The translations under genes and the position numbers were made by a program. A stretch of 64,000 bases of DNA from Ornithinimicrobium pratense (GTDB lineage: Bacteria; Actinomycetota; Actinomycetes; Actinomycetales; Dermatophilaceae), in assembly GCF_008843165.1 (NCBI RefSeq), contig NZ_CP044427.1, positions 2,790,001-2,854,000 of the forward strand. The letters are read 5' to 3'. Position 1 is the first letter of the stretch, and each line of letters begins with the position of its first letter. The notes under the pieces are model-generated. The model was given only the letters and a program-made list of their open reading frames with translations. It ran no database searches and had not been told where the DNA came from. Positions 42,803 through 63,076 of this stretch are shown in pieces.

Positions 42803-43696
42803 ATGAGACAGCGTCCTTCCGGCATAGAAAACGACGAGGTACATCACGACGACGACGCCGCACAGCGGACCCATGAGTTCGTCGCCCGAGACGCGGCAGA
42901 GCAGGCCGGGGTGGATATCCGAGAGATGACCACTGTGCATGACCTGGTTGCGGCCCCGAAGCTGCTGGGCCAGGTCTGGGGCATCGGTCCGCACGATCCG
43001 CCGCCGGTGAGTCAGCACACGCTCACGGCGCTCGTCCACGCCGGCAACTACGTCGTCGGGGCCTACAGGGCAGCGGACTTGGTCGGGGTGAGCATCGGCT
43101 TCTTCGGTACCCCTGGCCTTCACCTGTTCCACTCGCACATCACGGGTGTGCTGAGCGGGTCAACCGGGCGTGGGCTGGGGCTGGCGCTCAAGTTGCATCA
43201 ACGAAGCTGGTGCCTGGACCGAGGTGTCCGGCTCATCGAGTGGACCTTTGACCCGCTCGTCGTCCGCAACGCCGGCTTCAACCGCAACCGGCTGGGCGCG
43301 CGCTTCGTGGAGTATCTGCCGCAGTTTTACGGCGAGATGCGCGATGGTCGCAACTCCGGGCAGGGCAGCGACCGACTACTCGCCCGTTGGCATCTTGACG
43401 AGCCGGTGCCTCAACCGGACCGGAATCCCCCCACAGGGGACACCACCCCAGAATTGCTGCTCCTGGACGTCGGCGACGACGAGTATCCGGCGATCCACGG
43501 CCCACAGCGCGTGGATAGCGAGGGCGTACTCCGCCTGCGTGTTCACCCGGACATAGAGGATCTACGTCGGCGCTCCCCGGAGGCGGGGATCGCCTGGCGC
43601 GGGGCGGTGCGCGACACCCTGCAGCCTTTGATGGCTGAGGGCTGGCAGGTCAGCGCAGTAGCTCGCGACGGCACATATACGTTGACGCGCGGCTGA
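42803..43696 (+). CDS. GNAT-like acyltransferase (COG3375-type), candidate N-succinyltransferase
   Basis: The 297-residue protein resembles predicted GNAT acetyltransferases found beside NSAR genes. It has LVGVSIGFFGTPGLHLFHSHITGVLSGSTGRGLGLALKLHQR in successive segments (acyl-CoA-binding core) and WTFDPLVVRNAGFNRNRLGARFVEYLPQFYGEM in pieces, characteristic of this subgroup. In Geobacillus the homologous protein succinylates D-amino acids. A TTG at 42794 overlaps the M20 stop, but the ATG at 42803 has GGAGGAGG at normal spacing. It is last gene of the operon. Confidence 0.8.
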   Translation: MRQRPSGIENDEVHHDDDAAQRTHEFVARDAAEQAGVDIREMTTVHDLVAAPKLLGQVWGIGPHDPPPVSQHTLTALVHAGNYVVGAYRAADLVGVSIGFFGTPGLHLFHSHITGVLSGSTGRGLGLALKLHQRSWCLDRGVRLIEWTFDPLVVRNAGFNRNRLGARFVEYLPQFYGEMRDGRNSGQGSDRLLARWHLDEPVPQPDRNPPTGDTTPELLLLDVGDDEYPAIHGPQRVDSEGVLRLRVHPDIEDLRRRSPEAGIAWRGAVRDTLQPLMAEGWQVSAVARDGTYTLTRG

Positions 43697-43928
43697 CGAC
43701 CGCCCTCTCCACGAGGTTGAAGTGTGAGTGCGACCTTTCCCCTCTCTGGGCATGTGTCCGTTTCACACTTCTTGGCAGGAGAACGGCGGTGCGGCGCAGC
43801 GGCGAGGGCCGCAACAACGCGGATCCGGGCTGGGGAAATGTCTCGTGGCACAACCGCATGGCGGGATCGTCGGGGAACCCGGGCGCGCAGATGCCGGCTG
43901 ATCTGCCGCGGGCTCCACCGCTGGGCAG

Positions 43929-43988
43929 CCTGGTCATGAGGAGAGCTGGCGAAGGGACTCGAACCATCGACCACCTGTTTACAAGACA
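43929..43988 (-). other. attL: displaced 3' fragment of tRNA-Thr
   Basis: The sequence repeats 63001-63048 at 43941-43988 with two differences (43966 and 43969), and a further 8 bases (CCTGGTCA) match just outside. It covers the tRNA from the anticodon loop and stem to the 3' end. One difference (43966) disrupts a T-stem pair, consistent with a non-functional leftover fragment. The stretch 43697-43940 to its left holds no gene I can support. Confidence 0.85.
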
Positions 43989-44064
43989 CCCAGGGGAAAC
44001 GGGTTGACCTGCGGATATCGCACGTAACAGCGTCGTGTGGGGCGTCCCGTGCAACATACGTGCA

Positions 44065-44668
44065 TCAGTGATGGCCACCCCAGTCCGATTCTGACCGTAC
44101 GGCGCGCGCACGGGGACCAGCGGCGTACAGGGACGGACTGCGCAGCTTCCCGCTCCTGGCCAGGGCAGGGGCAGCGCACGATGACCGGTCGAAGCACCAG
44201 GGCCGCCGCTTCCCACCGTCCAGCTTCGAAACGCTGGCCTCCACCCGGCGCCGCCGAGTTGCCGGGTTCCTCGTTGCTTGGATCCAGCGGACCCACTCCC
44301 ACCGGGCCATTGCCGTGAGGTCCTCCCACCAGCTCCCCGGAGTCGTGCGGGGGCATCGTCCAGGGCAGCCTTTAGGTCATAAGGCACGTCAGGCTCTGGC
44401 CAGTCGGGTCGCCGGTGTCCCCGGGCCCAACCCCGGCGTCGTGGTACAGCGCCTGGTCCAGGCGGATCCAGTGCCCCCGGTGTCCGTCCGGCTCTCCGAC
44501 TGTCGCAAACGGATGCCCCTCAATGGTTCCCGCACCGCGACTTGCCCGCGCGAGTGTCGTTCCTCGCTCGCCGACGTCGGCAACGCCACTCAAGACGCGA
44601 AGCAGTCATCCATCCAGTTCACGGCCGAGTTGTCTGCCATCGACGGGAACACCCTGGTGGCCGGAGAC
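44065..44668 (-). pseudogene. YdeI/OmpD-associated (DUF1905) family gene, frameshifted and rearranged
   Basis: Minus-strand pieces in three frames give, in order, LPTSASEERHSRGQVAV, GTIEGHPFATVGEPDGHRG, HWIRLDQALYHDAGVGPGDT, DWPEPDVPYDLKAALDDAPA and ARWEWVRWIQATRNPATRRR. These follow the DUF1905/YdeI layout from middle to C-terminus. A piece resembling the expected N-terminus, SIQFTAELSAIDGNTLV, is on the plus strand at about 44613-44663, so the 5' part appears inverted. The gene is dead. The gap from 44669 to 45009 shows nothing else I can support. Confidence 0.6.
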
Positions 44669-45009
44669 ATGCACATAGCGACCTCCCTCGGTTTGGAGCC
44701 CAGGACCCGGTGCGCCCATGCGGCAGCACGGGGCTTCCAGCGCTTTCCAGCTACTGCGGGACCGTCATGGACGCCACGACGCCACTGCTCACCGTCGACG
44801 AATATGCTGCCCGCCGCAGCACCCGCCACATGCGTGACATCGCTCTCACGCCGAGGTGCGTGACATCACGACTCCGCCGATGAGCGGGCCTTTGACCATC
44901 GACATGTCGCTGGCCCGTCTTGTATCAGCCGAAGCGACTAGTCACGCGATCACTCCACGTCAGTGCAACCAACTGACCGAATCTGGCCGATTGTCGTTAC
45001 CATCCCGTC

Positions 45010-46563
45010 ATGCGACCACTCTCACCACGTCTCTTGGACCAGTTGCAGCTTGAATCGGCCGCGTCTGACGAGGCGGGAGCCCTACGCAACTTGCTTCCTC
45101 CAGAACCGGAGTGGTGGTCTCAAGTGACCAACTTTCCCACAGTCCTGTCGAAGGTGACTCATTCTCGTCTAGGCAGCGGCATGGTCGTGCATCCTGTGGC
45201 CGAGGTATCGGCCCGGAAGTCAAGGCACGGACTGCGCCCTCTGCCGCTCATCGGCTTACCTGAGCGCGTGGCTTATGGTGCTCTCACTAAACTAGTCACA
45301 CAAGACATACCGCCGCTTCGGCGGAGCCCGGAGGATTGGCTGCAGTTCTCCTTAGCCCCAGTCAAACACGGTGAGTCTCTCGTCCCAGAGCCAGAATTCA
45401 CCAGTGGGAAAATAGATTTCGGCACGCTTTTGCCTTGGTCCTCGCCCATCAAATACGTCTTGAAGTCAGACGTTGTGGCTTTCTATCGACATGTTGATCA
45501 TGAGCTTCTACATGAGCAGCTCATCATTCTTGGGGCTGACTACGAGGCCGCGCAACACCTCATCGAATTCTTGGGAGAACTACAAGGACGCCCTGTCGGT
45601 CTCCCGCAACTGCACGCGTCATCCGACGTCCTTTCGGAGATATACATAGACGCGGTCGAAAGGGAGATGCTCCGCCGAGGCCACGAGGTGTGGCGCTTCA
45701 ACGACGACTTTAGGGTGACTGCTAGAGGCTACATGGACGCGCTCAGGGGACTAGAGGATCTTGACGCTTGTTTGCGTAGAGCCAGTTTGACGCTTAATGA
45801 AGCCAAGACAACAATCCCATCCTTTTCGACCTATTACATGGAAGTTATGGGCCTTGCGGTCGGTGAAACCGGAGTTGTACTGGCAAGACAAGAAGTAGAG
45901 GATGTCGTCGGTGACTATACAGACGACTTCACGCAGGATGCTGACGCGGCTGCCCGTTTGATCGAAAGGGTTACCGAATGGCCGGGCGATGACGATAACG
46001 CCATAGATCTCCGGGGTGCTGGTCCGGCGGAGGTGAGGCTCTTGCGGAGGGCCCTAGCTGGGTTAGCACGAGCGCGCGATGATCGCGCTCTTGAGAAGGT
46101 TCCAATCCTGGTCCGTTACTTGGCCGAGTTGACCCCCGCTGCTCTGAAGTATGTACTGCGACTCAGCAGGGCCCGCGTGGCCAAAACCAGGCTCGCCGCT
46201 GTACTGGACGAACTTGCGGACAAAACGGCCACCAACGACTGGCAGAAGATGTGGATCGTGCACGCCTACTCCGGAGCTCGCATACTCGATCTCAAGCGAA
46301 ACCGTGAGTCTAGGGTCAAGTGGTTGCAAAACTGCGCCATGCACTGGTCGGATGCACCCCTTCGAGCCTATGCGATATGGGCCCTTGCCGCATCGGGCGA
46401 GATATCCATGGAGAACCTGCTCAAAGCCCAACACAGTGCGCCCGAGTGTCTGCATGTTTACTACGCTGAGGCGGCGCGCGAGTTGGGAACCCCCGCGAAT
46501 AGATCACAACGCCAGAAGGCCTTTGCCCATGACCCACTGCTGCGCACGCTGGCGGGTGCTTGA
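45010..46563 (+). CDS. Reverse transcriptase with C-terminal helical domain, probable phage-defence RT
   Basis: The 517-residue protein shows RT motifs in order: motif A KSDVVAFYRHVDHELL with D154, motif B GRPVGLPQLHASS (193-205), motif C RFNDDF with the catalytic pair D232-D233, and motif D-like LTLNEAKT (260-267). About 200 C-terminal residues are alpha-helical repeats without maturase or endonuclease motifs, so it is neither a group II intron RT nor a retron by appearance. It overlaps the HEPN gene (ATGA). Both are visibly AT-richer than the host genes, indicating transfer. It resembles Abi/DRT-class defence RTs; the subclass is unknown. Confidence 0.85.
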   Translation: MRPLSPRLLDQLQLESAASDEAGALRNLLPPEPEWWSQVTNFPTVLSKVTHSRLGSGMVVHPVAEVSARKSRHGLRPLPLIGLPERVAYGALTKLVTQDIPPLRRSPEDWLQFSLAPVKHGESLVPEPEFTSGKIDFGTLLPWSSPIKYVLKSDVVAFYRHVDHELLHEQLIILGADYEAAQHLIEFLGELQGRPVGLPQLHASSDVLSEIYIDAVEREMLRRGHEVWRFNDDFRVTARGYMDALRGLEDLDACLRRASLTLNEAKTTIPSFSTYYMEVMGLAVGETGVVLARQEVEDVVGDYTDDFTQDADAAARLIERVTEWPGDDDNAIDLRGAGPAEVRLLRRALAGLARARDDRALEKVPILVRYLAELTPAALKYVLRLSRARVAKTRLAAVLDELADKTATNDWQKMWIVHAYSGARILDLKRNRESRVKWLQNCAMHWSDAPLRAYAIWALAASGEISMENLLKAQHSAPECLHVYYAEAARELGTPANRSQRQKAFAHDPLLRTLAGA

Positions 46564-47129
46564 TGGTAAGGCACGTGCGCTTGGCACTGACAGAGCGCAC
46601 CCTGTTGCAGCTCCGTCAGTCTGCTGGTTTATATCAAGAACTAGTTAGAGACGGCCGCGTGACGGGCCAGGAAGAGAATGTACTCGGGATGGGCACCTGG
46701 ATGACTCTTCTCGGTTATACAGAATTCTATGCTGACGGCATTCTTAGTGCGCTATTCGAGAAGGCGTCCCGTGAGGTTGACGTTGGAATACAGTACCTCC
46801 TTAAGAAAGAAGCAAACAAGGCATACAATACGTGGCTTGCCAGGAAGGAAGCCTTAGCCGGGGTTTTTGGCGTCAGGATTACTGAACTTTCATCTTGGGC
46901 GAGACTAGACGCAGCCATATGGGTTAGAAATGGTATCGCTCACGGTTCTGGAGGACTCACCCGCATGCAAAAAGCGCAAGAGGCCGGAAAGGCGATCCTG
47001 GTCGGAGTTCCGCTGAACGAAGGCAGATTGGTTCTAAGTGCGATGTCAGTGGCTACCTGCGCTGACGTGTGTTGCGAGTTCGTTGAGGAACTTGATCTTG
47101 CGACGCGCAAAGAACTTTCTCAAAGCTGA
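46563..47129 (+). CDS. HEPN-like protein, partner of the reverse transcriptase
   Basis: The 188-residue, mostly helical protein contains VRNGIAHG, in which R122-N123-x3-H127 matches the HEPN ribonuclease motif (Rx4-6H with a polar second residue). Its ATG overlaps the RT stop by four bases, so the two are translationally coupled. In AbiA-type systems an RT and an HEPN domain are in one protein; here they would be separate. A function as an RNA-cleaving or RT-activity-sensing effector is inference. Base composition is as AT-rich as the RT gene. Confidence 0.75.
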   Translation: MVRHVRLALTERTLLQLRQSAGLYQELVRDGRVTGQEENVLGMGTWMTLLGYTEFYADGILSALFEKASREVDVGIQYLLKKEANKAYNTWLARKEALAGVFGVRITELSSWARLDAAIWVRNGIAHGSGGLTRMQKAQEAGKAILVGVPLNEGRLVLSAMSVATCADVCCEFVEELDLATRKELSQS

Positions 47130-47371
47130 TGATTGTGCATCTCAACTGACTGACATTCGATGGAGTCGCTCGTGGCGCTCCCATGCCTCGCACCTCGACC
47201 GGGCCGCCTGCTCGCGCACCTGACCAACGTCACTAGCACCGCATCCGCACATGCCGCCATGAGTTAGGTTGACCTACCGGCCAAAGCGTGCTGCTACGAA
47301 GCGGCCACAGATGGATGCGCCGCGGTGGCACCCACCCGGTACTCGACGAGACTCTAGGGAAGTAGGTCAGC

Positions 47372-47665
47372 ATGGGTGGGGTTGTCCGCGTTCGCAGAGA
47401 GAACAGCCCGTGGGCCAACCGAGGGCGCAAGTTTCGGATTCTCATCGATGGCATTGAGGTAGGGCGGATCGGCAACCGGGAGACGATTGAATGGCCTGTG
47501 CCCGCCGGTGACATTTCAATCGGGGCCCGCATCGACTGGGTTGGCTCCCCGACTCTGCAGGCGGAGGTCGAGGAGGGTGACGTGGTCTCGTTCACCGTCG
47601 GGAACGGTGACCCGTTGGCGCTCATCGGACGCACGGACCGCTACCTCACTTTGAAGCAGGGTTAA
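47372..47665 (+). CDS. Small beta-rich protein of unknown function
   Basis: The 97-residue protein (GGVVRVRRENSPWANRGRKF at the start, then ILIDGIEVGRIGNRETIEW) looks like a single small beta-sandwich with alternating hydrophobic residues and a W-x-GSPTLQ strand. It resembles short actinobacterial proteins with a PEGA-like fold, but no function is known. The ATG has AGGGAAGTAGG upstream. It lies alone between the RT/HEPN pair and a DUF4177 gene. The gap before it (47130-47371) contains only a small inverted repeat TAGGTTGACCTA at 47265-47276. Confidence 0.6.
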   Translation: MGGVVRVRRENSPWANRGRKFRILIDGIEVGRIGNRETIEWPVPAGDISIGARIDWVGSPTLQAEVEEGDVVSFTVGNGDPLALIGRTDRYLTLKQG

Positions 47666-47937
47666 CTGTCGATCGCGACTGCTGCCTCTTTGGTGCGACC
47701 CCCGTCCTTGACGTGATCGGTAACAGGCACATCGCAGTCCTGGCGCCGATCCTGCCGCTCAAATTCCAGAGAGTGGCCGAGAGTAGGCCGCTGGGGCGCC
47801 GCCCCTGCGCACTCATCTAACGCCGAACGCGCGGGACGCGCGACCCCCTGCCGCGCAGGAGAGTGTGTCCAGCAGGGCGCGCCGGCGACCACAGTTGGGT
47901 TACAGTGCGGCCATCGCTAGTGAGTCTTGGAGGAATT

Positions 47938-48153
47938 GTGGCGCAAGGTCCGAACTACGTTGTTCTGCAGGTCGTTCTAAAGGAGAAGCTCCTGGGAACC
48001 GGCTCGGGCAACCTCACCGAGCTGGAAAAGGCCATCAACCAGCAGGCGGCGAAAGGCTACCGACTTCACACCATCAGCACGGCGTCCTCCGGCAGCAAGG
48101 GCTTCGGGGGTGGTGACCGAGTCCAGGCCACCATGGTGTTCGAGGCGATCTGA
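47938..48153 (+). CDS. DUF4177-like small protein
   Basis: The 71-residue protein reads NYVVLQVVLKEKLLGTGSGN, then LTELEKAINQQAAKGYRLHT and a closing strand TMVFEAI. This strand-helix-strand layout with a conserved G-Y/W-x-L fits DUF4177. The GTG start is chosen because TTGGAGGAATT precedes it; the earlier open frame lacks homology. Function is unknown. 47666-47937 shows no gene. Confidence 0.65.
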   Translation: MAQGPNYVVLQVVLKEKLLGTGSGNLTELEKAINQQAAKGYRLHTISTASSGSKGFGGGDRVQATMVFEAI

Positions 48154-48384
48154 GCCACTCGACTGGGCACGACGATAGACCTCCGTAATTGCCGCACGTC
48201 GCTCGTGCGGTGAGGGTATCTCGGTCTGCCGGAACCGTGCCCGGGTGGCGTGGGAGGCGTGGCGGTCAGAGCGAACATAAGATGCCGACCGAGCCTGTTG
48301 CGCCGAGCGGCTCCGGCGACGTGATCGCAGAGGAGATCCGCCCAACGGTCTACGATTCGCGAAGACCAGGAGGGACAGACGAGC

Positions 48385-48885
48385 ATGGGCTACAGCAGCG
48401 AGTTGGAGATCAAGCGGGAGCTGGGCATCGAGACCTGGCGGGAGCTGTCGAAGGACAAGTTGCTGCGCTTCGTCGCCATGATGCCGGACATGGACACGGA
48501 GGTGGCGCTGAAGGTCGTTGAACAGTTTCCGAGCTTCAAGGACTTCGCAGTAGAGGTCGTAGGCGCTGTGGAGACCGCATACGAGTCCACCCTGAAGACG
48601 AACGAACGGAGCGGCGACCACGTCCACGATGCGTACGGGGACATCCGAACGATCCTGAAGGCAGAACTAGATAAGGGGGAGCTGCCCTGGGAGCAGCGGC
48701 GCTGGCTCGTGGAGCAGATCCAAGAGACCGGCCGCCAGCAGTTCATCAAGGACAGCGAGAACAAGCGCTTCTTGGACAGCGTGCTCGGCAAGGTCGTCAT
48801 GGGCGCTGGCGGCATCGTGGTGCTCGGCTTGGCCGCCTTGGGAGGGCGGGTGCTGGAGCAACGCGGCACTGGTGGTCCCTCTTAA
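48385..48885 (+). CDS. Hypothetical protein with C-terminal membrane anchor
   Basis: I do not recognise this 166-residue protein. It is helical and highly charged over residues 1-135, with likely coiled-coil stretches (KLLRFVAMMPDMDTEVALKV; QRRWLVEQIQETGRQQFIKD). One membrane segment (VVMGAGGIVVLGLAALGG, about 138-156) is followed by a short Arg/Gly tail, so it is probably tail-anchored facing the cytoplasm. AGGAGG precedes the ATG by about 12 bases. It stands alone; the gaps 48154-48384 and 48886-49118 show nothing I can support. Confidence 0.6.
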   Translation: MGYSSELEIKRELGIETWRELSKDKLLRFVAMMPDMDTEVALKVVEQFPSFKDFAVEVVGAVETAYESTLKTNERSGDHVHDAYGDIRTILKAELDKGELPWEQRRWLVEQIQETGRQQFIKDSENKRFLDSVLGKVVMGAGGIVVLGLAALGGRVLEQRGTGGPS

Positions 48886-49118: not shown

Positions 49119-50210
49119 TTATCCGTTCTCGACTACTCGCAAGTGACCTTGGCGACCGGTGGTGCGACCGCCCAACCGGCCGTCGACCGCCAGCGGCGTC
49201 AGGCCCATCATGTAGGCCTGGACTTCGGCAGGGTGCAGACCCAGATCGGCTGCGATCGTCCCTAGGCCGCTCTGACTGGCGCGTAACTGCTGCATGACCT
49301 TAGTGAGCAGCATCGACGATTCGTGTGCAATGCCATGTGGCTCACCACGACGGTAGCCAAGGCGCGACAGGTCGATGCAGAGACTGCGGTATGCCCACTC
49401 CGTCATCAGCCCCAGTTCGTTCGCGCGGTGTGCCATAGCCATCGCGGCGACTCTCCAACGCTTCTTGGCTTCGAGGACCTGGGGCGCCGTGGCGTTGGTA
49501 AGTCCTTGCGCGAGCACACCAGCCCTCGGCATCAAGAACGCCGCGGCGAATCTGTTCGCCTCAGCCTCCGCGTCGGGTCCGTTGGGGATCTTGTCTTCAC
49601 CGTGAAGGACCAGGTGCCCTAACTCGTGAGCAGCGTTGAACCGACGCCGCTCCCCCGACTTCTCTCGACTGAGCAGGATGAACGGCTGGCCGTGCCAGTT
49701 CACGCAGTACGCATCTAGGTCATTCGTGTCATTGGTTAGCGAGAAGACCCGGATGCCATGGGCCTCCAGAAGGTGAACCATGTTGCCAATGGGCTGCTCC
49801 CCCAGCCCCCAGCGGGCTCGAACCTCCTGCGCCGCCAGCTCAGGATCTCGCCCAGTCAAGGTGGGGACGTCGGGCTCAGGGAGCGCGAACCTCTGCTCGA
49901 TCCACTCGTTGATGAGAATGGCGATGCGTCCGGAGCTCAGTCCGCGATCACGGGTGCGTGCCGTCATTTTGCTTAGAGCTCGAAAACTGACTGACTCGAC
50001 CGGGATCTCGTCCAGATCGTCGGCGGTCAAGAACGCCTCCTCGACGCCAAGCGCTTCCGCCAGGGTCGCCAGGGTCTGGGGTGTTGGGTCCTGGTGCTGA
50101 TTTTCGTAAGCCGACAGACTCACTCGGCTCAGGCCAGTCTCGCCTGCCAGCTTCGTCAAGGTCCAGCCTCGGCGCTTTCGGGCGGCCGCCAATCGCGTTG
50201 GGTTTAACAC
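49119..50210 (-). CDS. XRE-family regulator with ImmA/IrrE metallopeptidase domain
   Basis: The 363-residue protein has an N-terminal HTH (LNPTRLAAARKRRGWTLTKLAGETGLSRVSLSAYENQ in parts, 1-40) and a zinc-peptidase domain. The latter carries HELGH at 195-199 and the downstream acidic ligand region AEAEANRFAAAFLMP. Members cleave repressors or act as antitoxin-like regulators in mobile elements and stress responses. The GTG at 50210 is preferred (AGGAA upstream, homology starts here); an ATG at 50267 would overlap the upstream gene by 38 bases. It is cotranscribed with the 216-residue gene. Confidence 0.85.
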   Translation of the reverse strand: MLNPTRLAAARKRRGWTLTKLAGETGLSRVSLSAYENQHQDPTPQTLATLAEALGVEEAFLTADDLDEIPVESVSFRALSKMTARTRDRGLSSGRIAILINEWIEQRFALPEPDVPTLTGRDPELAAQEVRARWGLGEQPIGNMVHLLEAHGIRVFSLTNDTNDLDAYCVNWHGQPFILLSREKSGERRRFNAAHELGHLVLHGEDKIPNGPDAEAEANRFAAAFLMPRAGVLAQGLTNATAPQVLEAKKRWRVAAMAMAHRANELGLMTEWAYRSLCIDLSRLGYRRGEPHGIAHESSMLLTKVMQQLRASQSGLGTIAADLGLHPAEVQAYMMGLTPLAVDGRLGGRTTGRQGHLRVVENG

Positions 50211-50229
50211 GGACTCTGTTCCTACTTGG

Positions 50230-50880
50230 CTAACGCAGCGCGACTTCGACGTTGTAAGCGTCGCCATCGTCGGACGGGGGCTCTTCGATCGCCATAGTCA
50301 GGGGCGGGTCTTGGCGCGAGACTTGCGGAAGGAGGATTCGCTCTTCCCAGTCGACTATGACCCCCTTCTCGATCGACGTCGGTAGCGACAGTTCGGCGTA
50401 GATAGTCTCGTCGGTCACCCGCTGGAGGAGGAACCAGACGTTCTCCAGGTCTGCCGGGTCGAGCGCGCGAAGCGCGTAAGCGTCACCGAGGTCGAGCACG
50501 CCCTGGTCTGCGTTCTGCTTGACCGCCAGAGCTGTCAGGTCGCCCTTGGGGTACTTTGTCGATGGCTTCATGCCCGGCACATGGACACCGGTGAACTCGT
50601 CGCCCGAACTGGTCACGATCGAGAACGAACCGCTGGGGTGGATCGTTCGGCAGAAGTTCTTCGCGTTGTCTGGCTTCCAGCCCAGAGGCACTAGTTCCTC
50701 GCGCACGTAGCGCACGGTCTTGCCGTATCTGGTTGTCCCCTCCGCAGTGGGCGGCTCAAGACCGGTTGTCATCTTGGCCTCGGCATCGGCGCGCAGAAGC
50801 GCCCGTACGAGCAGGTCTGCACTGAGACCGAGTTGCTGGAGGCGGCCCTCGGCGACGTGGTCGATCGCGACTGCAGTCAT
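50230..50880 (-). CDS. Unknown protein paired with XRE-ImmA/IrrE gene
   Basis: The 216-residue protein has no motif I recognise. The middle contains FCRTIHPSGSFSIVTSSGDE and YALRALDPADLENVWFLLQR, suggesting an alpha/beta fold; the C-terminus is acidic (EEPPSDDGDAYNVEV). It is the first gene of a two-gene operon with XRE-ImmA, 19 bases apart. In such pairs the upstream gene is often the substrate or toxin partner, but this is inference. The start region is preceded by GAGGT-type inverted repeats. CDS status is confident from codon usage and operon position. Confidence 0.7.
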   Translation of the reverse strand: MTAVAIDHVAEGRLQQLGLSADLLVRALLRADAEAKMTTGLEPPTAEGTTRYGKTVRYVREELVPLGWKPDNAKNFCRTIHPSGSFSIVTSSGDEFTGVHVPGMKPSTKYPKGDLTALAVKQNADQGVLDLGDAYALRALDPADLENVWFLLQRVTDETIYAELSLPTSIEKGVIVDWEERILLPQVSRQDPPLTMAIEEPPSDDGDAYNVEVALR

Positions 50881-51824: not shown

Positions 51825-52309
51825 CCCGTCGCGCAGCACGCCGAGTGTCCACCACGAAGCAGTGGCCCAGGCGCAGCGACTCCAGGGCAATCATCCAATG
51901 GCTCGAGCATGATTCCGGTGGCCCAGTGCCAAAGCCGACGCCAGCACCCGCCACGCCCAAATGCACAACCCGACCTCAGGGACGCACCACATCGACTCAC
52001 CCTCCCGACCAGCCGTGCCGAACACGCACCACGCAGACCGACCGGCCTGAGCATGACCCAGACCATCCCTGAGGCTGACCGAGACCGACCCTGAGTCTGA
52101 CCGAAACCGCCCCGCTCATGTCCCACACACCTCTGGCATTGCCGGTCCAAGCGAGCATTATCGCGCCAGATGTCACATGAGCAGGGTGGTCTGCGGATTC
52201 GTAGTCCGGGCTCGAGTCCCTGCATGGTGCGCCGACCAGGGACGCAGTCCATGGTGTAACGTCAGAAGCAACAATATGACTTCTACGGCAACGGCGATTG
52301 GCGGTCCTG

Positions 52310-53425
52310 ATGGTCGACGTGCCCGGCTCGGCAGGACTGCTCCTCGTCGCTGGGATCGCTCATCTGAACGAGGAGAGCGCCGTCTTCGAGGCCATGCTGA
52401 CCGGGTGGGGACGTCAGCAGCAGTCCCGGCTTCTGGGGAGCAAGACGGTCACCGACCGAGCGCGACTGGTGCGCCGGTTTACCGAGTTCGCCGACTCCTA
52501 CCCGTGGGCGTGGGGACCGGGTGACGTGGAGGACTTCACCGTCTCCTTGGCCAGCGGACCCGGTGCCCGAGCACCCTCCACGATCCGCGGGTACCACCTG
52601 GCCTTACGGATGTTCTGCGACTACGTCACCGACGCCCGTTACGGCTGGCTGAAGGAGTGCCGCGACCGGTTTGCCGCCGTGCCCTCCCAGGTCTGCCACG
52701 AGTGGAACACGGTGGCACACCTGAACGAGTACGAGGGCCGCCCGGCACGGCGCCCGCTGACGTACGGAGAGCTGCAGGATCTCTTCGACCACCTGGACGG
52801 CCAGGTGGAACGGGCCGCGTCCTCGGGCCGCAAGGGTGCCCTGAGCGCGTTGCGGGACGCGCAGATCTTCAAGACGGCCTACGCGTTCGGGCTGCGTCGT
52901 AACGAGCTGTGCCGCCTGGACGTGGCCGACCTGCGACCCAACCCGCACGTGCCCCGTTGGGGCACCTACGGCTCGGTCCACGTCCGGTACGGCAAGGCCG
53001 TCCGCGGTGGTGTCCCGCGCCGCCGCACCGTCCTGGCGGTGCCGGAGTTCGACTGGGCCATCGAGGGCATGCGCCAGTGGGTGGAGCAGGCACGGCCGTT
53101 GTTCAAGGCACCCGGCCAGCCGGCCCTGTGGGTGACCGAGCGGCTCTCGAGGGTCTCGCTGCGCCACCTGGACGCCCGCTTCGCCGACGTGCGCGAGCAG
53201 GTAGGCCTTGACCCTGCGCTGTCGCTGCACTGCCTGCGCCACTCCTACGTGACCCACTTGATCGAGTTCGGCTACCCCGAACGCTTCGTCCAGGAGCAGG
53301 TCGGGCACGCCTACGCATCGACCACCGCGATCTACGCCTCGGTCAGCAACGACTTCAAGGACAAGACGCTGAAGGCCGCACTGGCCCGCGTCTACGCACC
53401 CACCGATCAGGAGGACCCGTCATGA
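52310..53425 (+). CDS. Tyrosine recombinase, first gene of a three-gene recombination module
   Basis: The 371-residue recombinase has a SAM-like N-terminal domain (RLVRRFTEFADSYPWAW) and a full catalytic set: Arg in AFGLRRNELCRLDV, H-x-x-R-H in HCLRHSYVTH, histidine in VGHAYASTTAIY, and the nucleophile tyrosine at the end of that motif. The ATG at 52310 is chosen; a TTG at 52298 is in frame and no clear ribosome site is seen. The stop overlaps the HTH gene (ATGA). It probably moves this nested module rather than the whole island. Confidence 0.88.
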   Translation: MVDVPGSAGLLLVAGIAHLNEESAVFEAMLTGWGRQQQSRLLGSKTVTDRARLVRRFTEFADSYPWAWGPGDVEDFTVSLASGPGARAPSTIRGYHLALRMFCDYVTDARYGWLKECRDRFAAVPSQVCHEWNTVAHLNEYEGRPARRPLTYGELQDLFDHLDGQVERAASSGRKGALSALRDAQIFKTAYAFGLRRNELCRLDVADLRPNPHVPRWGTYGSVHVRYGKAVRGGVPRRRTVLAVPEFDWAIEGMRQWVEQARPLFKAPGQPALWVTERLSRVSLRHLDARFADVREQVGLDPALSLHCLRHSYVTHLIEFGYPERFVQEQVGHAYASTTAIYASVSNDFKDKTLKAALARVYAPTDQEDPS

Positions 53426-55294: not shown

Positions 55295-55765
55295 TCAGTG
55301 ACGAAGATCCTCCTCGTCGCTGGCGAAGGCCAAACTTTCCTCGATCACGGAGAGCACCTGCTCTAGCTCCTGCTCGTTCCGCGGCCCGTAGATCATGAAC
55401 TCGGTGTCGAAGTCCGCGTACTGGTGCGGCTCGGCCCACCCCAGCTGCACCAGTTCCGCGCCCCGAGCGGTAGGCAACGTGAGATGGACACTGGTGTCCT
55501 CGACGCCGTGAAGGTGCACCGGCTCAAGGCGCCTACCGGGTGCCAGTGAGGTCTGCGGATCGCGCTCTTGTGCCATACCCACAAGGAAGACCGCCCTCGA
55601 TGAGGCTGGTGAGACCTGGCTGATGCCCTCTTCGACGTTCTCCCGCCCGAAGACGCGCGCTACCAACTGGCCCCACAGAGCCGCAGGGGCCCTCTGGTCG
55701 AGTTGACGGTGGGGTCCCTCGTCAGAGGTGGCGGGTCGCAATCCTGCTCTCTGTTCACTCAGCAC
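55295..55765 (-). CDS. Luciferase-like DUF5519 family protein
   Basis: The 156-residue protein reads SRAVFLVGMAQERDP, then RRLEPVHLHGVEDTSVHLTLP and LGWAEPHQYADFDTEFMIYG followed by PRNEQELEQVLSVIEESL. This HLHG...SLHLTLP...GWAEPH...YGPR pattern is that of the luciferase/DUF5519 family, whose function in such short proteins is unknown. The start is GTG. It faces the recombination module. Confidence 0.7.
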   Translation of the reverse strand: MLSEQRAGLRPATSDEGPHRQLDQRAPAALWGQLVARVFGRENVEEGISQVSPASSRAVFLVGMAQERDPQTSLAPGRRLEPVHLHGVEDTSVHLTLPTARGAELVQLGWAEPHQYADFDTEFMIYGPRNEQELEQVLSVIEESLAFASDEEDLRH

Positions 55766-56240: not shown

Positions 56241-56699
56241 CTACCTGCGCCGTTCGCGGCGGTGCAGCCTGTCGCTGCGGGCCCGGTAGGCCGTCAGTAC
56301 CCGGGACAGCGAGGACTCAATCTCTGCGAGGTCCGTCAGATCCATGCGGTTGCTGCCCAGTGCCCACTCCAGTCGGTTCAGCACCATGACCCACTCGCGA
56401 GCAGACCGGGGTGATTGCACCACCGGCACCCCCACCCGACGCTCCTCGACGACCTTCTCGACCCTGACGACCTCCACGACGCGGTCGACGACCTCGACAG
56501 CCGCAAGCCCCGCGTCGGCGGCACGACGTTGCTCCCAAGCGCGGTGTCGGCAGGAACTGGAGCACCACTTCGGCACCCGCCCCCGAGGCGGGATAGGGAC
56601 CTGTGCGCGACACCATCCGCAGACAACCTTCTGCCCCGGCTCGCGGGACATGGAGGGTGCGTCCCTACCACTAGGGACCTTGCTCGGCTCGATCTCCAT
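56241..56699 (-). CDS. Small zinc-motif protein of unknown function
   Basis: The 152-residue protein contains CGWCRAQVPIPPRGRVPKWC followed by SSSCRHRAWEQRR, a CxxC...CxxxC motif typical of small FLZ-like proteins common on actinobacterial elements. A basic and helical C-terminal part follows, with valine-rich stretches and NRLEWALGSNRMDLTDLAEI. The ATG at 56697-56699 is the first in frame after the IS3 remnant; the open frame continues upstream into that remnant. Function is unknown. Confidence 0.6.
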   Translation of the reverse strand: MEIEPSKVPSGRDAPSMSREPGQKVVCGWCRAQVPIPPRGRVPKWCSSSCRHRAWEQRRAADAGLAAVEVVDRVVEVVRVEKVVEERRVGVPVVQSPRSAREWVMVLNRLEWALGSNRMDLTDLAEIESSLSRVLTAYRARSDRLHRRERRR

Positions 56700-56846
56700 G
56701 AGAGCCTCCGATGGCTCGCTTCTTGTCACCCTGATTCGTGCCAACGATATACTCAACCCCGTCGGTGCAAGATGTGTGATGGTGTTGAGCGCAGCGAAGC
56801 AGGGGTAGGACGTCGTGGGTTGAACGCGTCGGTCGACGGAACACCC

Positions 56847-57077
56847 TCGGGAGACATGGGCCCGGTACAGGTCGTGTTTTGCATGCAGGACCGCGACGAC
56901 GGGGCGCGAACGGAACTGGCTGCCCCGATCTCCGTTGACCACGCAGCCGGCGACGGTGTCACGGCCGCGGCGGGCGGTGGCCATCTCGAGTGCGTCGACA
57001 GCCAGGGCCGAGGGCATCCGCTCGGCGATGGAGTAGCCCACGATCCGGCGTGGCCAGACGTCCTTCACCGCGCATAC
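56847..57077 (-). mobile_element. IS3-family transposase fragment
   Basis: The minus-strand peptide VCAVKDVWPRRIVGYSIAER, then ALAVDALEMATARRGRDTVA and GDRGSQFRSRPVVAVLHAKH, matches the middle of an IS3 OrfB integrase core (one catalytic Asp in GDRGSQF is visible). It ends abruptly on both sides, and no inverted repeats are recognisable. It is a remnant. Confidence 0.75.
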
Positions 57078-57195
57078 CAAACTGGCCCTACGCCCACTCG
57101 CCAACCACTGGGTCGGCGTCCCGCACGGCTGCACTCGCTACCGCATCTTCAACGACGAGAACACCGCCTGGCAACAGCACCTCAACAGTTGGTGA
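57076..57195 (+). mobile_element. Transposase C-terminal fragment (IS110-like)
   Basis: The plus-strand peptide TKLALRPLANHWVGVPHGCT, then RYRIFNDENTAWQQHLNSW and stop, resembles the C-terminus of IS110-family transposases (NRWVGxLHGC...YDExTAW). It abuts the IS3 fragment with no spacer, so one element inserted at or recombined with the other. Remnant only. Confidence 0.6.
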
Positions 57196-59484: not shown

Positions 59485-59955
59485 TTAAGGCGCGGAGTTA
59501 GGCTCCCGACGCAAGAACGGCATGACCACAGCGGGCAGTCCGAACTCACCGGGCAGGCGATGCAGTGCCGTTCGGAAATATGGGTACGCCATGAACAGCA
59601 CGTTCTGCTGTATGAAATATTCGATCGACTCATCGGAGGGGACGGCGTCGCCTTCCAGCTCGATCTCGACCATGTGGGCAACCTCTAGGTAGCCAACCAG
59701 CACCGGCTCCTCTTCCTCCGCTTCAGGCAACACGTATTCGGCCCTGTTGGCGAACCGCACCAAGATGACCCCTTCGGCCGCCTCAACGTGGTACCACGGG
59801 GGAGTCGTCGTTAGACGCACATCCACGTCGGCGGGGGGTGTGCGCCGCAGCTCCCCATCGATACGCTGAACAAGCACGTCCCGAATGCGCGTTCGCGGAA
59901 CGAGATCTTCCATTTCGGCAATGCTATCAGTGCCAGGCTCGGCTGCCTTAGACAT
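59485..59955 (-). CDS. SecB-like chaperone
   Basis: The 156-residue protein resembles the SecB fold. Strands include VDVRLTTTPPWYHVE, GVILVRFANRAEY and EEPVLVGYLEVAHMVEIELE. A helix YFIQQNVLFMAYPYFRTALH follows, with LPAVVMPFLRREP after it, which corresponds to the SecB PYxRexv...GxPPlxlx end. In mycobacterial toxin-antitoxin-chaperone loci a SecB-like protein stabilises the antitoxin. Here it overlaps the HTH gene by eight bases. Assignment is by pattern and should be confirmed by profile search. Confidence 0.68.
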   Translation of the reverse strand: MSKAAEPGTDSIAEMEDLVPRTRIRDVLVQRIDGELRRTPPADVDVRLTTTPPWYHVEAAEGVILVRFANRAEYVLPEAEEEEPVLVGYLEVAHMVEIELEGDAVPSDESIEYFIQQNVLFMAYPYFRTALHRLPGEFGLPAVVMPFLRREPNSAP

Positions 59956-60640
59956 AGTCCCTCGAACGCCAAGCGGCCGGGGATGGCGTCCAATCGAATG
60001 GGTCGCGCAAAGAGCACTTGCCTACGCTTAAGTCTTCCTGCGCGAATCCGAAGATGACCGTGCTCATGATTGACGTACGCGGCGCCAGCAGGGCTACGCG
60101 CGCCCCGCGTGCGGTCTGCGACCCCACCTGCTGCCAGTCTCGGTCAAGGAAGTCCCGAACATTGGCCAAACACGCGTCGATGTGGGCGATAGTTAGATGG
60201 TCCGGAAGGTTTTCGTCCATGGCGAGTCCGTAGACCTTCTCGAGCCACGGCACAACCTCGGCCCAATCCCAGATCTTCACAGCCCCGGACGGCGGGCCGC
60301 CCACAGTGTCAACTGGCGCAGGAAACGCGTCGTCGCCCTTGCGGTGGGTCCACTTACGGATGGCCTCTCGTGACAAGCCCACACGTGCTGCGACGTCGCT
60401 CATCGTTACGAAGTCACGGTGGACTCGAGTAATTTTGGCGTCGGGGAGTCGATTCTTGATCTCGTTCGCGGCCTCGACAACATGTCCCACCACGTCGCCA
60501 CCTGGTACAAAGATGGTCACGGTGACTTGGCCATCGACCGAGGCCCACGAGTAGTCGGGGAAGTAACGTGCGATCAGATCGTTAGTCGCTTCACTGTGAA
60601 GGTCCACCCCAGTGACCCGAAGTCGCACAGCTGTCGTCAT
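59948..60640 (-). CDS. AlpA/MerR-type HTH protein, partner of the SecB-like chaperone
   Basis: The 230-residue protein has an N-terminal alpha/beta region (VRLRVTGVDLHSEATNDLIA; GQVTVTIFVPGGDVVGHVVE), then an HTH with MSDVAARVGLSREAIRKWTH and the AlpA-like W-D-WAEVVPWL segment. A C-terminal region of about 80 residues follows. GGGAGGAGA precedes the ATG. It could be an antitoxin-type repressor or a regulator of this module. Its stop lies inside the SecB-like gene. Confidence 0.75.
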   Translation of the reverse strand: MTTAVRLRVTGVDLHSEATNDLIARYFPDYSWASVDGQVTVTIFVPGGDVVGHVVEAANEIKNRLPDAKITRVHRDFVTMSDVAARVGLSREAIRKWTHRKGDDAFPAPVDTVGGPPSGAVKIWDWAEVVPWLEKVYGLAMDENLPDHLTIAHIDACLANVRDFLDRDWQQVGSQTARGARVALLAPRTSIMSTVIFGFAQEDLSVGKCSLRDPFDWTPSPAAWRSRDYV

Positions 60641-60761
60641 GACGTCTCCTCCCATCTGCACGGCGATCCGCACATCCTAGACCCGAACGGTTGACACATG
60701 ACAACCGACCCTGCTAACTGTCGCACACTGTGCCGCGTTCCTCTAGGGGCGCCCAGTCAGA

Positions 60762-61409
60762 TCAGGTAACGATCCGGGCACGGAGCGCGTCTGTGCGGCG
60801 CCTCAGCGCGTTGGCCTGATCGCGCAGCTCCCGGACGCGGTCGGTGGGCAAGTGCTTGGTCCGCAGATCTCGCCTCGCATCATCGACTCTCTCATCTGCG
60901 AGCGCAACGGCGAGGGGCGCCTCGATGGGCTCTACCGCAGCCTCGACGAAGGCAGCCGCAGCCTCGGCCTCAAGTGCGTCGCGCGCATCAATCAGGCGTC
61001 CTGCCTCATCCCAGGTCGCCTCATCCATCTCGCCGTCGTTGAGGAGCTCGTCGGCCCCGGCCAGGAGCTCGAACGCCTTGTCCGTCTCGTCCCGCTCGTA
61101 CAGGGCCTCCGCCGCTGTGATCAACCGCTCCGCTTGATTCAACTTCAGTTCCGCTCCGGCCAGCACCCCCGGCGGACCTGTGTAGTGCGGGCATCGGTCA
61201 ACCAACTTTTTCGTGTCCTTCGCGACCGTCTCCCCGCCCGTCCCCGTTGCGTAAATGGGCTTGAAGCACTCGCGGGTCGGGCAGAAGATGGTCCCCCAAT
61301 GACCTCCAGACTCGAGAGACCATCCGTGGGTCTGGGCGTACCGCAGGGTCTCCCTCCAGTGAGGCTTCGGGTGCTCGGGCCACACGTCATCCGACGAGAA
61401 GCGTTCCAC
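60762..61409 (-). CDS. Unknown protein with HW/Cys-motif N-terminus and helical C-terminus
   Basis: The 215-residue protein is not recognised. The first 70 residues read PHWRETLRYAQTHGWSLESG, then GHWGTIFCPTRECF and RCPHYTGPP, a small alpha/beta region with Cys/His that resembles HicA-like mRNA-interferase folds only superficially. The rest is helical and Ala/Glu-rich. The GTG start is supported by AGGAGGTG. It precedes the HTH-SecB pair by 121 bases on the same strand. Gaps 60641-60761 and 61410-61727 hold no gene. Confidence 0.6.
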   Translation of the reverse strand: MERFSSDDVWPEHPKPHWRETLRYAQTHGWSLESGGHWGTIFCPTRECFKPIYATGTGGETVAKDTKKLVDRCPHYTGPPGVLAGAELKLNQAERLITAAEALYERDETDKAFELLAGADELLNDGEMDEATWDEAGRLIDARDALEAEAAAAFVEAAVEPIEAPLAVALADERVDDARRDLRTKHLPTDRVRELRDQANALRRRTDALRARIVT

Positions 61410-61727
61410 GGCGCACCTCCTCCCAACGCTGACCCTCAGCGGCACCGACCGATTCTCTCAGAGCCGGTCCGCTTCTGTGCCTACCGTTGCAAACCTCAGC
61501 GTGGCGCCCCTCGGGCGGCACACGTGCTCTTTGGTCAAGGTGAATCCGACTCTCGGAGTCGAGAGGGGAGCAGACGACACGCGCAGAAGATTTCGAGGAT
61601 GGCGGGTGCTTGGGAGTATGGCGCCGTCAGGCCCGCGGGCCAAGGGGGGGACAGCGCTAGGCCACGCCGACGGGTCCACCGTCGCCCCTGTCGTGCCCTC
61701 TGCGCGACCAGATCGGCTGCGGCGCGT

Positions 61728-62852
61728 TCATAGTTCGGGCTGGCGGGCGAGGTCGGACAGCTTGGCGGCGATCTCGGCGTCGCGGCCCTGGGCGGCGTGC
61801 TGGTAGCGCAGTGCGGCAGCGACAGTCGAATGTCCGAGGCGAGCCTGCAGCTCGGCGAGGGTGGCTCCGGTCATCGCGGCCATGGTGGCGCCAGTGTGCC
61901 GCAGGTCGTGGATCCTGAGGTCCTCGCGGCCGGCAGCGGCTCGTGCCTTGCGCCAGGCCGTGTGCAGCACCGTCGGCTGCAGATGACGCTGGTTGTCGCG
62001 CATGGAAGGAAAAAGCAGCGCATTCGCTTCGGACCGGACGTGCTTTTCCAGGTGCTGCTCCAGGGCGGGGACGATGTGCGGCGGCACGCTCACCTCTCGA
62101 GTCCCGGCGGCCGACTTCGGTGTGCCGACGATCGGCTGGCCCTTCACCCATGTCACCGCCCGGGTGACCTTGACGACACCACGGTTCAGGTCGAGGTCGC
62201 GCCGGCGCAGCTCAAGCACCTCCCCCACCCGGAGTGCGCACCAGGCGCAGAGTAGGACAACGGCACCGAGCTGGTCCGGCATCTTCTTCACGAGCACGTC
62301 CAGTTCGGGAAGCGTCGCCGGGTGGATCTCCTTCTTGGTCGGGGGGTTGGACGCGGACCGCACCCGGCAGGGGTTGCTGGCGAGGAGCTCGTCGGTGACG
62401 GCGGTGCTGAGGATGGCTCGAAGCAGCGCGTAGGCGCGGGCGTTGACCGTCGGGTGCTTCGGTGACAGTCCGGCCCACCACCGACGCACGAGAGCCGGCG
62501 TGAGGTCGGGGACGAGAAGCTCACCGAACGCCGGCTCCAGGTATCGCCGCAGCAGATGCTGGTAGCCCTCCCGGGTCCGCGGTTTGAGGGACCGGTCGGC
62601 CAGCCACTGCCGGGCGTACTCGTCGAAGGTGGGCGGCGCCAGCCGCTTTGCAATCTCGGCCCGACGCATGGGGGCGACCCAGTCGTCACGGTTGGCCAGC
62701 GCCCACTCCTGGCCCAGCCAGGCCTCGGCGTCACCCTTCGAGGAGAAGGTGTGCGGCGCGGTATGCCGCTGCAGGTCTGGCCCGGTGTAGCTCGCCTGCC
62801 ACCGCTTGCTCGGCAGCCGGCGCAGTGCCCCGAAGCCTCGTCTCGTCGCCAT
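61728..62852 (-). CDS. Tyrosine integrase of the tRNA-Thr island
   Basis: The 374-residue integrase has an N-terminal arm-binding region (GALRRLPSKRWQASYTGPDL), a SAM-like domain (TFDEYARQWLADRSLKPRTR) and the catalytic set: Arg in WCALRVGEVLELRR, H-x-x-R-H in IHDLRHTGATM, histidine in LGHSTVAAALRYQH with the tyrosine nucleophile at the end. The ATG at 62850-62852 is chosen by homology; another ATG lies four codons upstream. It reads away from the tRNA, 152 bases from attR, as in pSAM2-like elements. Confidence 0.92.
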   Translation of the reverse strand: MATRRGFGALRRLPSKRWQASYTGPDLQRHTAPHTFSSKGDAEAWLGQEWALANRDDWVAPMRRAEIAKRLAPPTFDEYARQWLADRSLKPRTREGYQHLLRRYLEPAFGELLVPDLTPALVRRWWAGLSPKHPTVNARAYALLRAILSTAVTDELLASNPCRVRSASNPPTKKEIHPATLPELDVLVKKMPDQLGAVVLLCAWCALRVGEVLELRRRDLDLNRGVVKVTRAVTWVKGQPIVGTPKSAAGTREVSVPPHIVPALEQHLEKHVRSEANALLFPSMRDNQRHLQPTVLHTAWRKARAAAGREDLRIHDLRHTGATMAAMTGATLAELQARLGHSTVAAALRYQHAAQGRDAEIAAKLSDLARQPEL

Positions 62853-62988
62853 CGGCCACCCCATCTCGTGCAACAGCGTGCAACATACGTGCAACAAGAG
62901 TGGGGCTTTGTGCTCACTTCTGTCAACGCGTGACCACGGCCGCGAACGCGGTGGATCCGGCATACTTGCAGGTCAGCGGCCTACAATG

Positions 62989-63048
62989 CCTGGTCAGAAC
63001 GAGAGCTGGCGAAGGGACTCGAACCCTCAACCACCTGTTTACAAGACA
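62989..63048 (-). other. attR overlapping the intact tRNA-Thr
   Basis: The sequence is identical to attL over 46 of 48 bases (63001-63048), and CCTGGTCA at 62989-62996 also matches. It spans the tRNA from its 3' end to the anticodon stem, so crossing over restores a full tRNA gene. The core point of exchange cannot be placed more exactly from sequence. Confidence 0.85.
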
Positions 63049-63076
63049 GGTGCGCTACCAATTGCGCCACGCCAGC
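63004..63076 (-). tRNA. tRNA-Thr (anticodon UGU)
   Basis: Minus strand: 7-bp acceptor stem GCTGGCG/CGCCAGC with discriminator T; D-arm with GCGCAATTGGTAGCGC; anticodon stem CCTGT/ACAGG around the loop CTTGTAA (anticodon TGT); T-arm GAGGG-TTCGAGT-CCCTT. No CCA is encoded. It is 73 bases long and the host gene for the island's attachment site. Confidence 0.95.

Follow-up and report, generated by a model that had tools for sequence, protein, structure and literature searches.

How might a reverse transcriptase (RT) and a small HEPN-type protein work together when their genes overlap? The question is raised by a 64,000-nucleotide stretch of Ornithinimicrobium pratense DNA (assembly GCF_008843165.1, contig NZ_CP044427.1, positions 2,790,001 to 2,854,000), referred to here as the window, in whose coordinates positions are given. 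We consider it very likely that the two genes form a UG22 DRT with a HEPN partner, the parts of which are as follows.

45010..46563, + strand: UG22-type RT gene, 517-residue product (PADLOC RT_UG22, 1.1e-126; Pfam RVT_1, 1.3e-7; structure model, pLDDT 91)
46563..47129, + strand: HEPN-type gene, 188-residue product with motif R122-N123-G-I-A-H127 (PADLOC RTasHEPN, 1.6e-38)
46560..46565, + strand: stop-start overlap of the RT and HEPN genes, TTGATG (reading frames; overlap also in related loci)

In PADLOC-DB 2023 the RT_UG22 match spans residues 5–515 with 422 bits, and among the matches listed (25 of 54 families) the next RT profile is UG21 (2e-27), while an AbiA profile (PDLC03742) reaches 9.7e-8. 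Pfam returned RVT_1 alone up to E 1, no NCBIfam model exceeded its cutoff for either protein of the pair, and a group II RT/maturase profile scored 51 bits against a cutoff of 300, covering the RT core alone. Judged by its profiles the window RT is a UG22-type defence RT, its best match lying far above that of the group II intron profile; it is also the sole match of its kind in the host genome at E 0.001. The structure model (mean predicted local distance difference test score, pLDDT, of 91) places an RT domain at about residues 1–290 and a helical C-terminus at about 311–516. The best structural matches are DRT6 and DRT4, and AbiK, AbiA and Abi-P2 match as well, in each case across both domains. 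DRT6 and DRT4 are placed in the class 1 UG/Abi RTs, and the modelled window RT has the architecture of this class, an RT domain fused to alpha-helical HEAT-like repeats. AbiK, AbiA and AbiP2 are members of class 1 as well (PMC12632851). We reject a group II intron RT on the RVT_1-only Pfam result, the weak maturase profile and the structural matches.

The second protein is covered by the RTasHEPN profile over residues 44–183. Its only Pfam match, to HEPN_RiboL-PSP, is sub-threshold (0.031), the same family being matched weakly in 7 of 26 related proteins scanned singly (best 0.01), and its profile gave no match against the PDB by sequence up to E 10. The R-x4-6-H motif of the HEPN superfamily is present with the spacing R-x4-H (R122 to H127). 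We aligned 26 HEPN proteins from all 20 loci described below and other relatives, without P0003 (a shorter copy of the window HEPN). R122, N123 and H127 are invariant in 26 of 26 proteins, some with as little as ∼20% identity to the window protein. W91 and G130 are likewise invariant, and E11, E54, A126, G128, T133 and Q136 nearly so. This pattern looks like a selected active site, the activity itself being a prediction. In the RT, D154, D232 and D233 are invariant in all 41 aligned proteins, with K266, G197, P199 and Q200 among the other invariant residues; this alignment takes in 18 of the 20 loci, leaving aside L025 (broken RT frame), L011 and P0009 (a shorter copy of the window RT). The active-site sequence FNDD (45697-45708, residues 230-233) is replaced by YADD in L029 and L077 and by FSDD in L075.

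The original prediction, made from the sequence alone, had described an RT of the defence type with intact motifs (D154; D232-D233 in FNDD), no intron maturase and a long helical C-terminus, overlapping a gene for a HEPN-type protein with RN-x3-H. The reading frames and alignment agree with these motifs, the UG22 profile and the lack of any maturase domain in Pfam up to E 1 bear out the defence type, the model backs the helical C-terminus, and the RTasHEPN profile and invariant R-N-H motif point to a HEPN-type protein, with R122-N123-x3-H127 in place. It had further suggested a distinct phage-defence branch. Here we disagree, as both genes already have profiles in PADLOC-DB 2023, where UG22 and RTasHEPN are filed under DRT and from which the window genes show no difference in kind. 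Because these profiles match, the module belongs to a candidate DRT type already in the catalogue rather than to a new branch.

Does the pair hold together beyond this genome? When GTDB contigs were scanned with RT patterns only, 20 loci were recovered, all actinobacterial judging from their record titles and with Acidimicrobiia included. A HEPN homologue lay directly downstream on the same strand in 20 of 20 (weakest 1.7e-6, in L027). Since these loci were fetched by RT sequence alone, the pairing is not due to chance, and the conserved gene pairs that the original prediction had proposed to seek in other actinobacteria do occur. In one metagenome record (L025, 4595-6108) the RT frame is broken and the HEPN gene after it is open, which could be damage or an assembly error. 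Genome searches added three HEPN-paired loci (G316, G535, G597) and three RTs with no HEPN gene in the fetched DNA (G340, G078, G410). The latter still typed best as UG22 in PADLOC (312, 252 and 273 bits, respectively), and G535 (501 bits) and G316 (482 bits) scored above the window RT. Overall, HEPN directly follows the RT in 24 of 27 loci, which we call UG22-like, as PADLOC typing was done for 11 of the 27 (all best as UG22). The HEPN-less RTs are 584–622 residues long compared with 490–580 for intact HEPN-paired RTs, counted from the first start codon. These long RTs lie at L065 4483-6237, L066 3993-5861 and L078 718-2583; in L066 and L078 the profile match starts ∼95–100 residues in, and the N-terminal extension might replace the partner.

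The genes are also joined at their ends. The RT stop is TGA at 46561-46563, and HEPN may start in one and the same frame at ATG 46563 (TGATG) or at TTG 46560 (TTGA), the latter giving a protein of 189 residues. Among 21 related loci (the 20 loci plus L029), with HEPN starts picked by hand, a candidate start lies −15 to +7 nt from the RT stop in all 21 and an exact four-base ATGA/GTGA overlap is found in 13. From this overlap we infer that the two genes are translationally coupled. RT and HEPN distances correlate (r 0.89, permutation p 0.0001; window plus 18 loci), as expected for genes inherited together. In a tree of 49 rows, the HEPN-paired RTs, that of the window included, group together on one side of a split supported at 94/94, and the two HEPN-less RTs included in the tree both fall outside this group. 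The tree was built without P0009, P0013, P0014, P0017, P0020, L011, L025, L075, L077 and L078; the HEPN branch includes 18 metagenome proteins with no visible gene neighborhood, and the outgroup (L040, L041, L047, L056, L061, L062) matches a general RT profile, its group II-like label being our own reading. Long branches (AbiA-like, UG21, the UG32 fragment, L066, P0030, L029, L027) are unsure in position. DRT6 and DRT4, closest to the window RT in structure, are described as single-gene systems (PMC13213688), whereas in the window's branch every locus, 24 of 24, has a HEPN gene after the RT.

UG22-like RTs are patchily distributed: at E 1e-30, 5 of the 248 genomes searched in the order contain one. 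RTasHEPN matches were obtained in 7 of 396 Actinomycetota genomes. The two strong matches (window, G316) adjoin UG22 RTs; the other five, which are weaker (G105, G152, G220, G342, G347), have no such RT within the 7.4–12 kb fetched. The UG22 profile itself matched in 98 of the 396, with most of the profile covered in four (window, G316, G340, G078). Ten of the partial matches were typed as UG21 (L055), a UG32 fragment (L039), a fusion of an RT with a Cas4-like domain (L042) and, for seven, the general RT profile. The Cas4-like fusion (L042, 1279-2988; PADLOC Cas4d 7.1e-51) comes from a genome of the actinomycete phylum. No relative was found in phage records; 96 IMG/VR stretches matched a pattern and none coded for a relative. 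Of the plasmid records, 20 matched in part and none over 80% of the query, the best having 28% identity over 55%. Within the fetched loci, no RT fused to a HEPN of the RTasHEPN kind was seen.

Several DRTs work with a non-coding RNA (ncRNA), namely DRT2, DRT3 and DRT9 (PMC13213688) and likewise DRT10 (PMC12632851). In contrast, the window module appears to lack one. Flanks were compared for 16 of the 20 loci together with the window, which itself has no close relative among them. Six loci form seven close pairs, in which the DNA similarity at the module starts 4–145 nt before the RT start and stops at or shortly before the HEPN end; similarity elsewhere in their flanks sits at other distances. 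Beyond these pairs, similarity away from the module was seen for L024/L026 (far upstream with differing distances), L016/L022 (∼5–7 kb downstream) and L012/L018 (40 bp). Rfam gave no match in 43500-48500 at E 0.1, a result that does not thereby exclude an RNA. Because shared similarity stops at both genes and Rfam finds nothing, the module appears to consist of just two genes. By these comparisons it is probably ncRNA-free, and a short leader RNA may lie within the 145 nt before the RT start. Retrons resemble the pair in combining an RT with a toxin-like effector, possibly in a toxin-antitoxin arrangement. However, they have an msr-msd ncRNA, which neither Rfam nor the flanks reveal here, whereas the window RT has an Abi-type helical domain. 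We therefore reject a retron, short of outright exclusion.

What could the two proteins do? HEAT-like repeats are a feature of the class 1 UG/Abi RTs, and the members studied synthesize DNA with no nucleic acid as template, some of them priming it from one of their own side chains (PMC13174585, PMC13275509). The random single-stranded DNA made by DRT4 turns toxic when its 3' end is shielded by a phage protein (PMC13213688). Because its fold and architecture match class 1 RTs, the UG22 RT should perform similar chemistry, and the added HEPN gene suggests that the state of the DNA is read by a ribonuclease (RNase). We think it probable that the RT controls HEPN as an RNase effector, be it by restraint or by activation. 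In the scheme that we tentatively favor over activation, giving it somewhat less than an even chance, HEPN is restrained by the RT or its DNA product and released on infection. The RT and HEPN would be produced together and form a complex; the RT would make untemplated, protein-primed single-stranded DNA as the studied class 1 enzymes do; and the resting RT, or its DNA adduct, would keep the HEPN RNase inactive. A phage factor that disturbs the DNA or the RT would then set HEPN free to cut cellular RNA, halting the infected cell before phage release. More speculative still is the specific form of an RNA-less RT toxin-antitoxin system, in which untemplated DNA made by the RT, possibly attached covalently, would serve as the antitoxin state that holds a separate, active HEPN RNase until phage tampering with this DNA frees it. 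If true, this would be retron logic without the ncRNA.

The main sober rival is that HEPN is a silent structural partner, as in AbiA: it would assemble the RT and sustain its DNA synthesis, with the DNA as the effector and no RNA cut. It earns this rank because the HEPN of AbiA is inactive in vitro despite its motif (PMC11077055). Opposed to it are the invariance of R, N and H in 26 of 26 divergent HEPN proteins, beyond what a scaffold would seem to need, and the differences between the two systems. AbiA carries RT and HEPN on one chain, while the window has two frames separated by the RT stop. The two AbiA proteins compared have R-x6-H (RNSNPVSH in PMC11077055, RNANPLSH in L073) where the window HEPN has R-x4-H, and a profile comparison gave no match to an AbiA HEPN (hhalign probability 0.1%). 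We regard a purely structural role as rather unlikely. On the same spacing and hhalign results, together with the RT profiles, we reject the notion in the original prediction that the pair is AbiA split in two; the RT is UG22. A full-length AbiA does exist in the same phylum (L073, 1282-3108; PADLOC 6.3e-219), the sole one in 296 genomes at E 1e-25.

Alternatively, control could run the other way, with RT DNA synthesis during infection, or a covalent DNA adduct, assembling HEPN and switching on its RNase. This belongs within the broader claim of RT control and is a close alternative by analogy with the DRT1 nitrilase, which is activated by DNA synthesis; the present data do not tell the two directions apart. 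Tight coupling of the partner suits restraint no less well, and the RT-first gene order resembles that of antitoxin-first operons, a point we count against activation. We give activation about the same modest weight as the structural role and continue to prefer restraint.

The pair lies in a ∼19-kb element between a partial tRNA-Thr copy and a tRNA-Thr gene, with the following features.

43928..43988, no strand: left attachment site, a 61-bp, 92% copy of the tRNA-Thr 3' part (sequence comparison)
62988..63048, no strand: right attachment site, inside and beside tRNA-Thr (gene 63003-63076, − strand)
61728..62963, − strand: tyrosine recombinase (integrase) of the element, adjoining the tRNA (Pfam Phage_integrase 4e-20)
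49119..50267, − strand: RmrA-like RosmerTA antitoxin, helix-turn-helix plus ImmA/IrrE peptidase (PADLOC RmrA 1.6e-140; Pfam Peptidase_M78)
50230..50880, − strand: RmrT-like RosmerTA toxin (PADLOC RmrT 1.9e-51)

Searching the window for exact 16-base matches brought up no additional copy of the tRNA end. The GC content of the pair is 0.56, compared with 0.666 for 12–63 kb and 0.768 for 1–12 kb, and none of 245 stretches of 2120 bp taken in 200-base steps across 12–63 kb is as low (lowest 0.561). The earlier statements that both genes are AT-richer than the host and sit on an island thus hold, the island being the element with its tRNA-Thr copies and recombinase. The pair is the first recognized function within the element, ∼1 kb before it lying outside the scan. 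RosmerTA is an established defence type (PMC10440598), and by its profile matches it is a second defence system of the element. Hence a domesticated or selfish mobile pair with some role other than defence seems improbable: the open-licence literature yielded no test of UG22 against phage, but its place among DRT families, RosmerTA in the same element and its patchy presence all speak against such a role.

Elsewhere in the element are partial matches to candidate defence profiles (59948-60673 and 60762-61445, − strand; PDC-M06B 5.5e-16, PDC-M06A 2.5e-9) and a small protein with a Pfam Luciferase domain (55295-55765, − strand; 7.5e-19). A second tyrosine recombinase (52298-53425, + strand; 1.7e-19) and a sub-threshold rve integrase-core match (56241-57134, − strand; 5.7e-7) are perhaps nested mobile elements. 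Left of the element, 12–44 kb has a lower GC than 1–12 kb and carries oligopeptide-type ABC transporters, M20 peptidases, an amidase, a fucosidase and a racemase-type gene.

In structural comparison the HEPN model comes closest to HepT-type toxins from MNT pairs, some of which carry added AMP in their solved structures, and HepT-MntA resembles the window pair in predicted HEPN fold, in R-x4-6-H and in setting a small toxin-like protein beside a nucleotide-transferring enzyme, there an MNT nucleotidyltransferase and here an RT. In HepT a tyrosine sits two residues after the catalytic H; the window HEPN has none there (H127-G128-S129). That the RT blocks HEPN by adding nucleotides to it, as MNT does in HEPN-MNT pairs, is very improbable, for even though DRT3b attaches DNA to its own Y666 (PMC13174585), so that such RTs can use protein hydroxyls as primers, the best-kept HEPN tyrosine, Y56, is present in 21 of 26 proteins, against 41 of 41 for RT Y159 and 40 of 41 for Y275 and Y381.

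In the open-licence literature, outside which most subscription papers lie, we found no RT paper that names UG22 or puts an RT and a separate HEPN to the test. As far as we found, UG22 and RTasHEPN are catalogued as candidate phage-defence genes and the pair is seemingly without a laboratory test. The present analysis shows the pairing, with HEPN next to the RT in 24 of the 27 loci that are UG22-like, the overlap, the invariant catalytic residues and, in the close pairs compared, the two-gene limits of similarity. The pair bears on the question of how the untemplated DNA of class 1 defence RTs brings protection. A DNA-making enzyme and a probable RNase are here separate, genetically coupled chains, and so each can be switched off singly, which makes the link between RT and effector directly testable. 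The pair also lets one ask whether HEPN in RT systems is an enzyme or a scaffold, a question to which AbiA answers scaffold, at least in vitro (PMC11077055).
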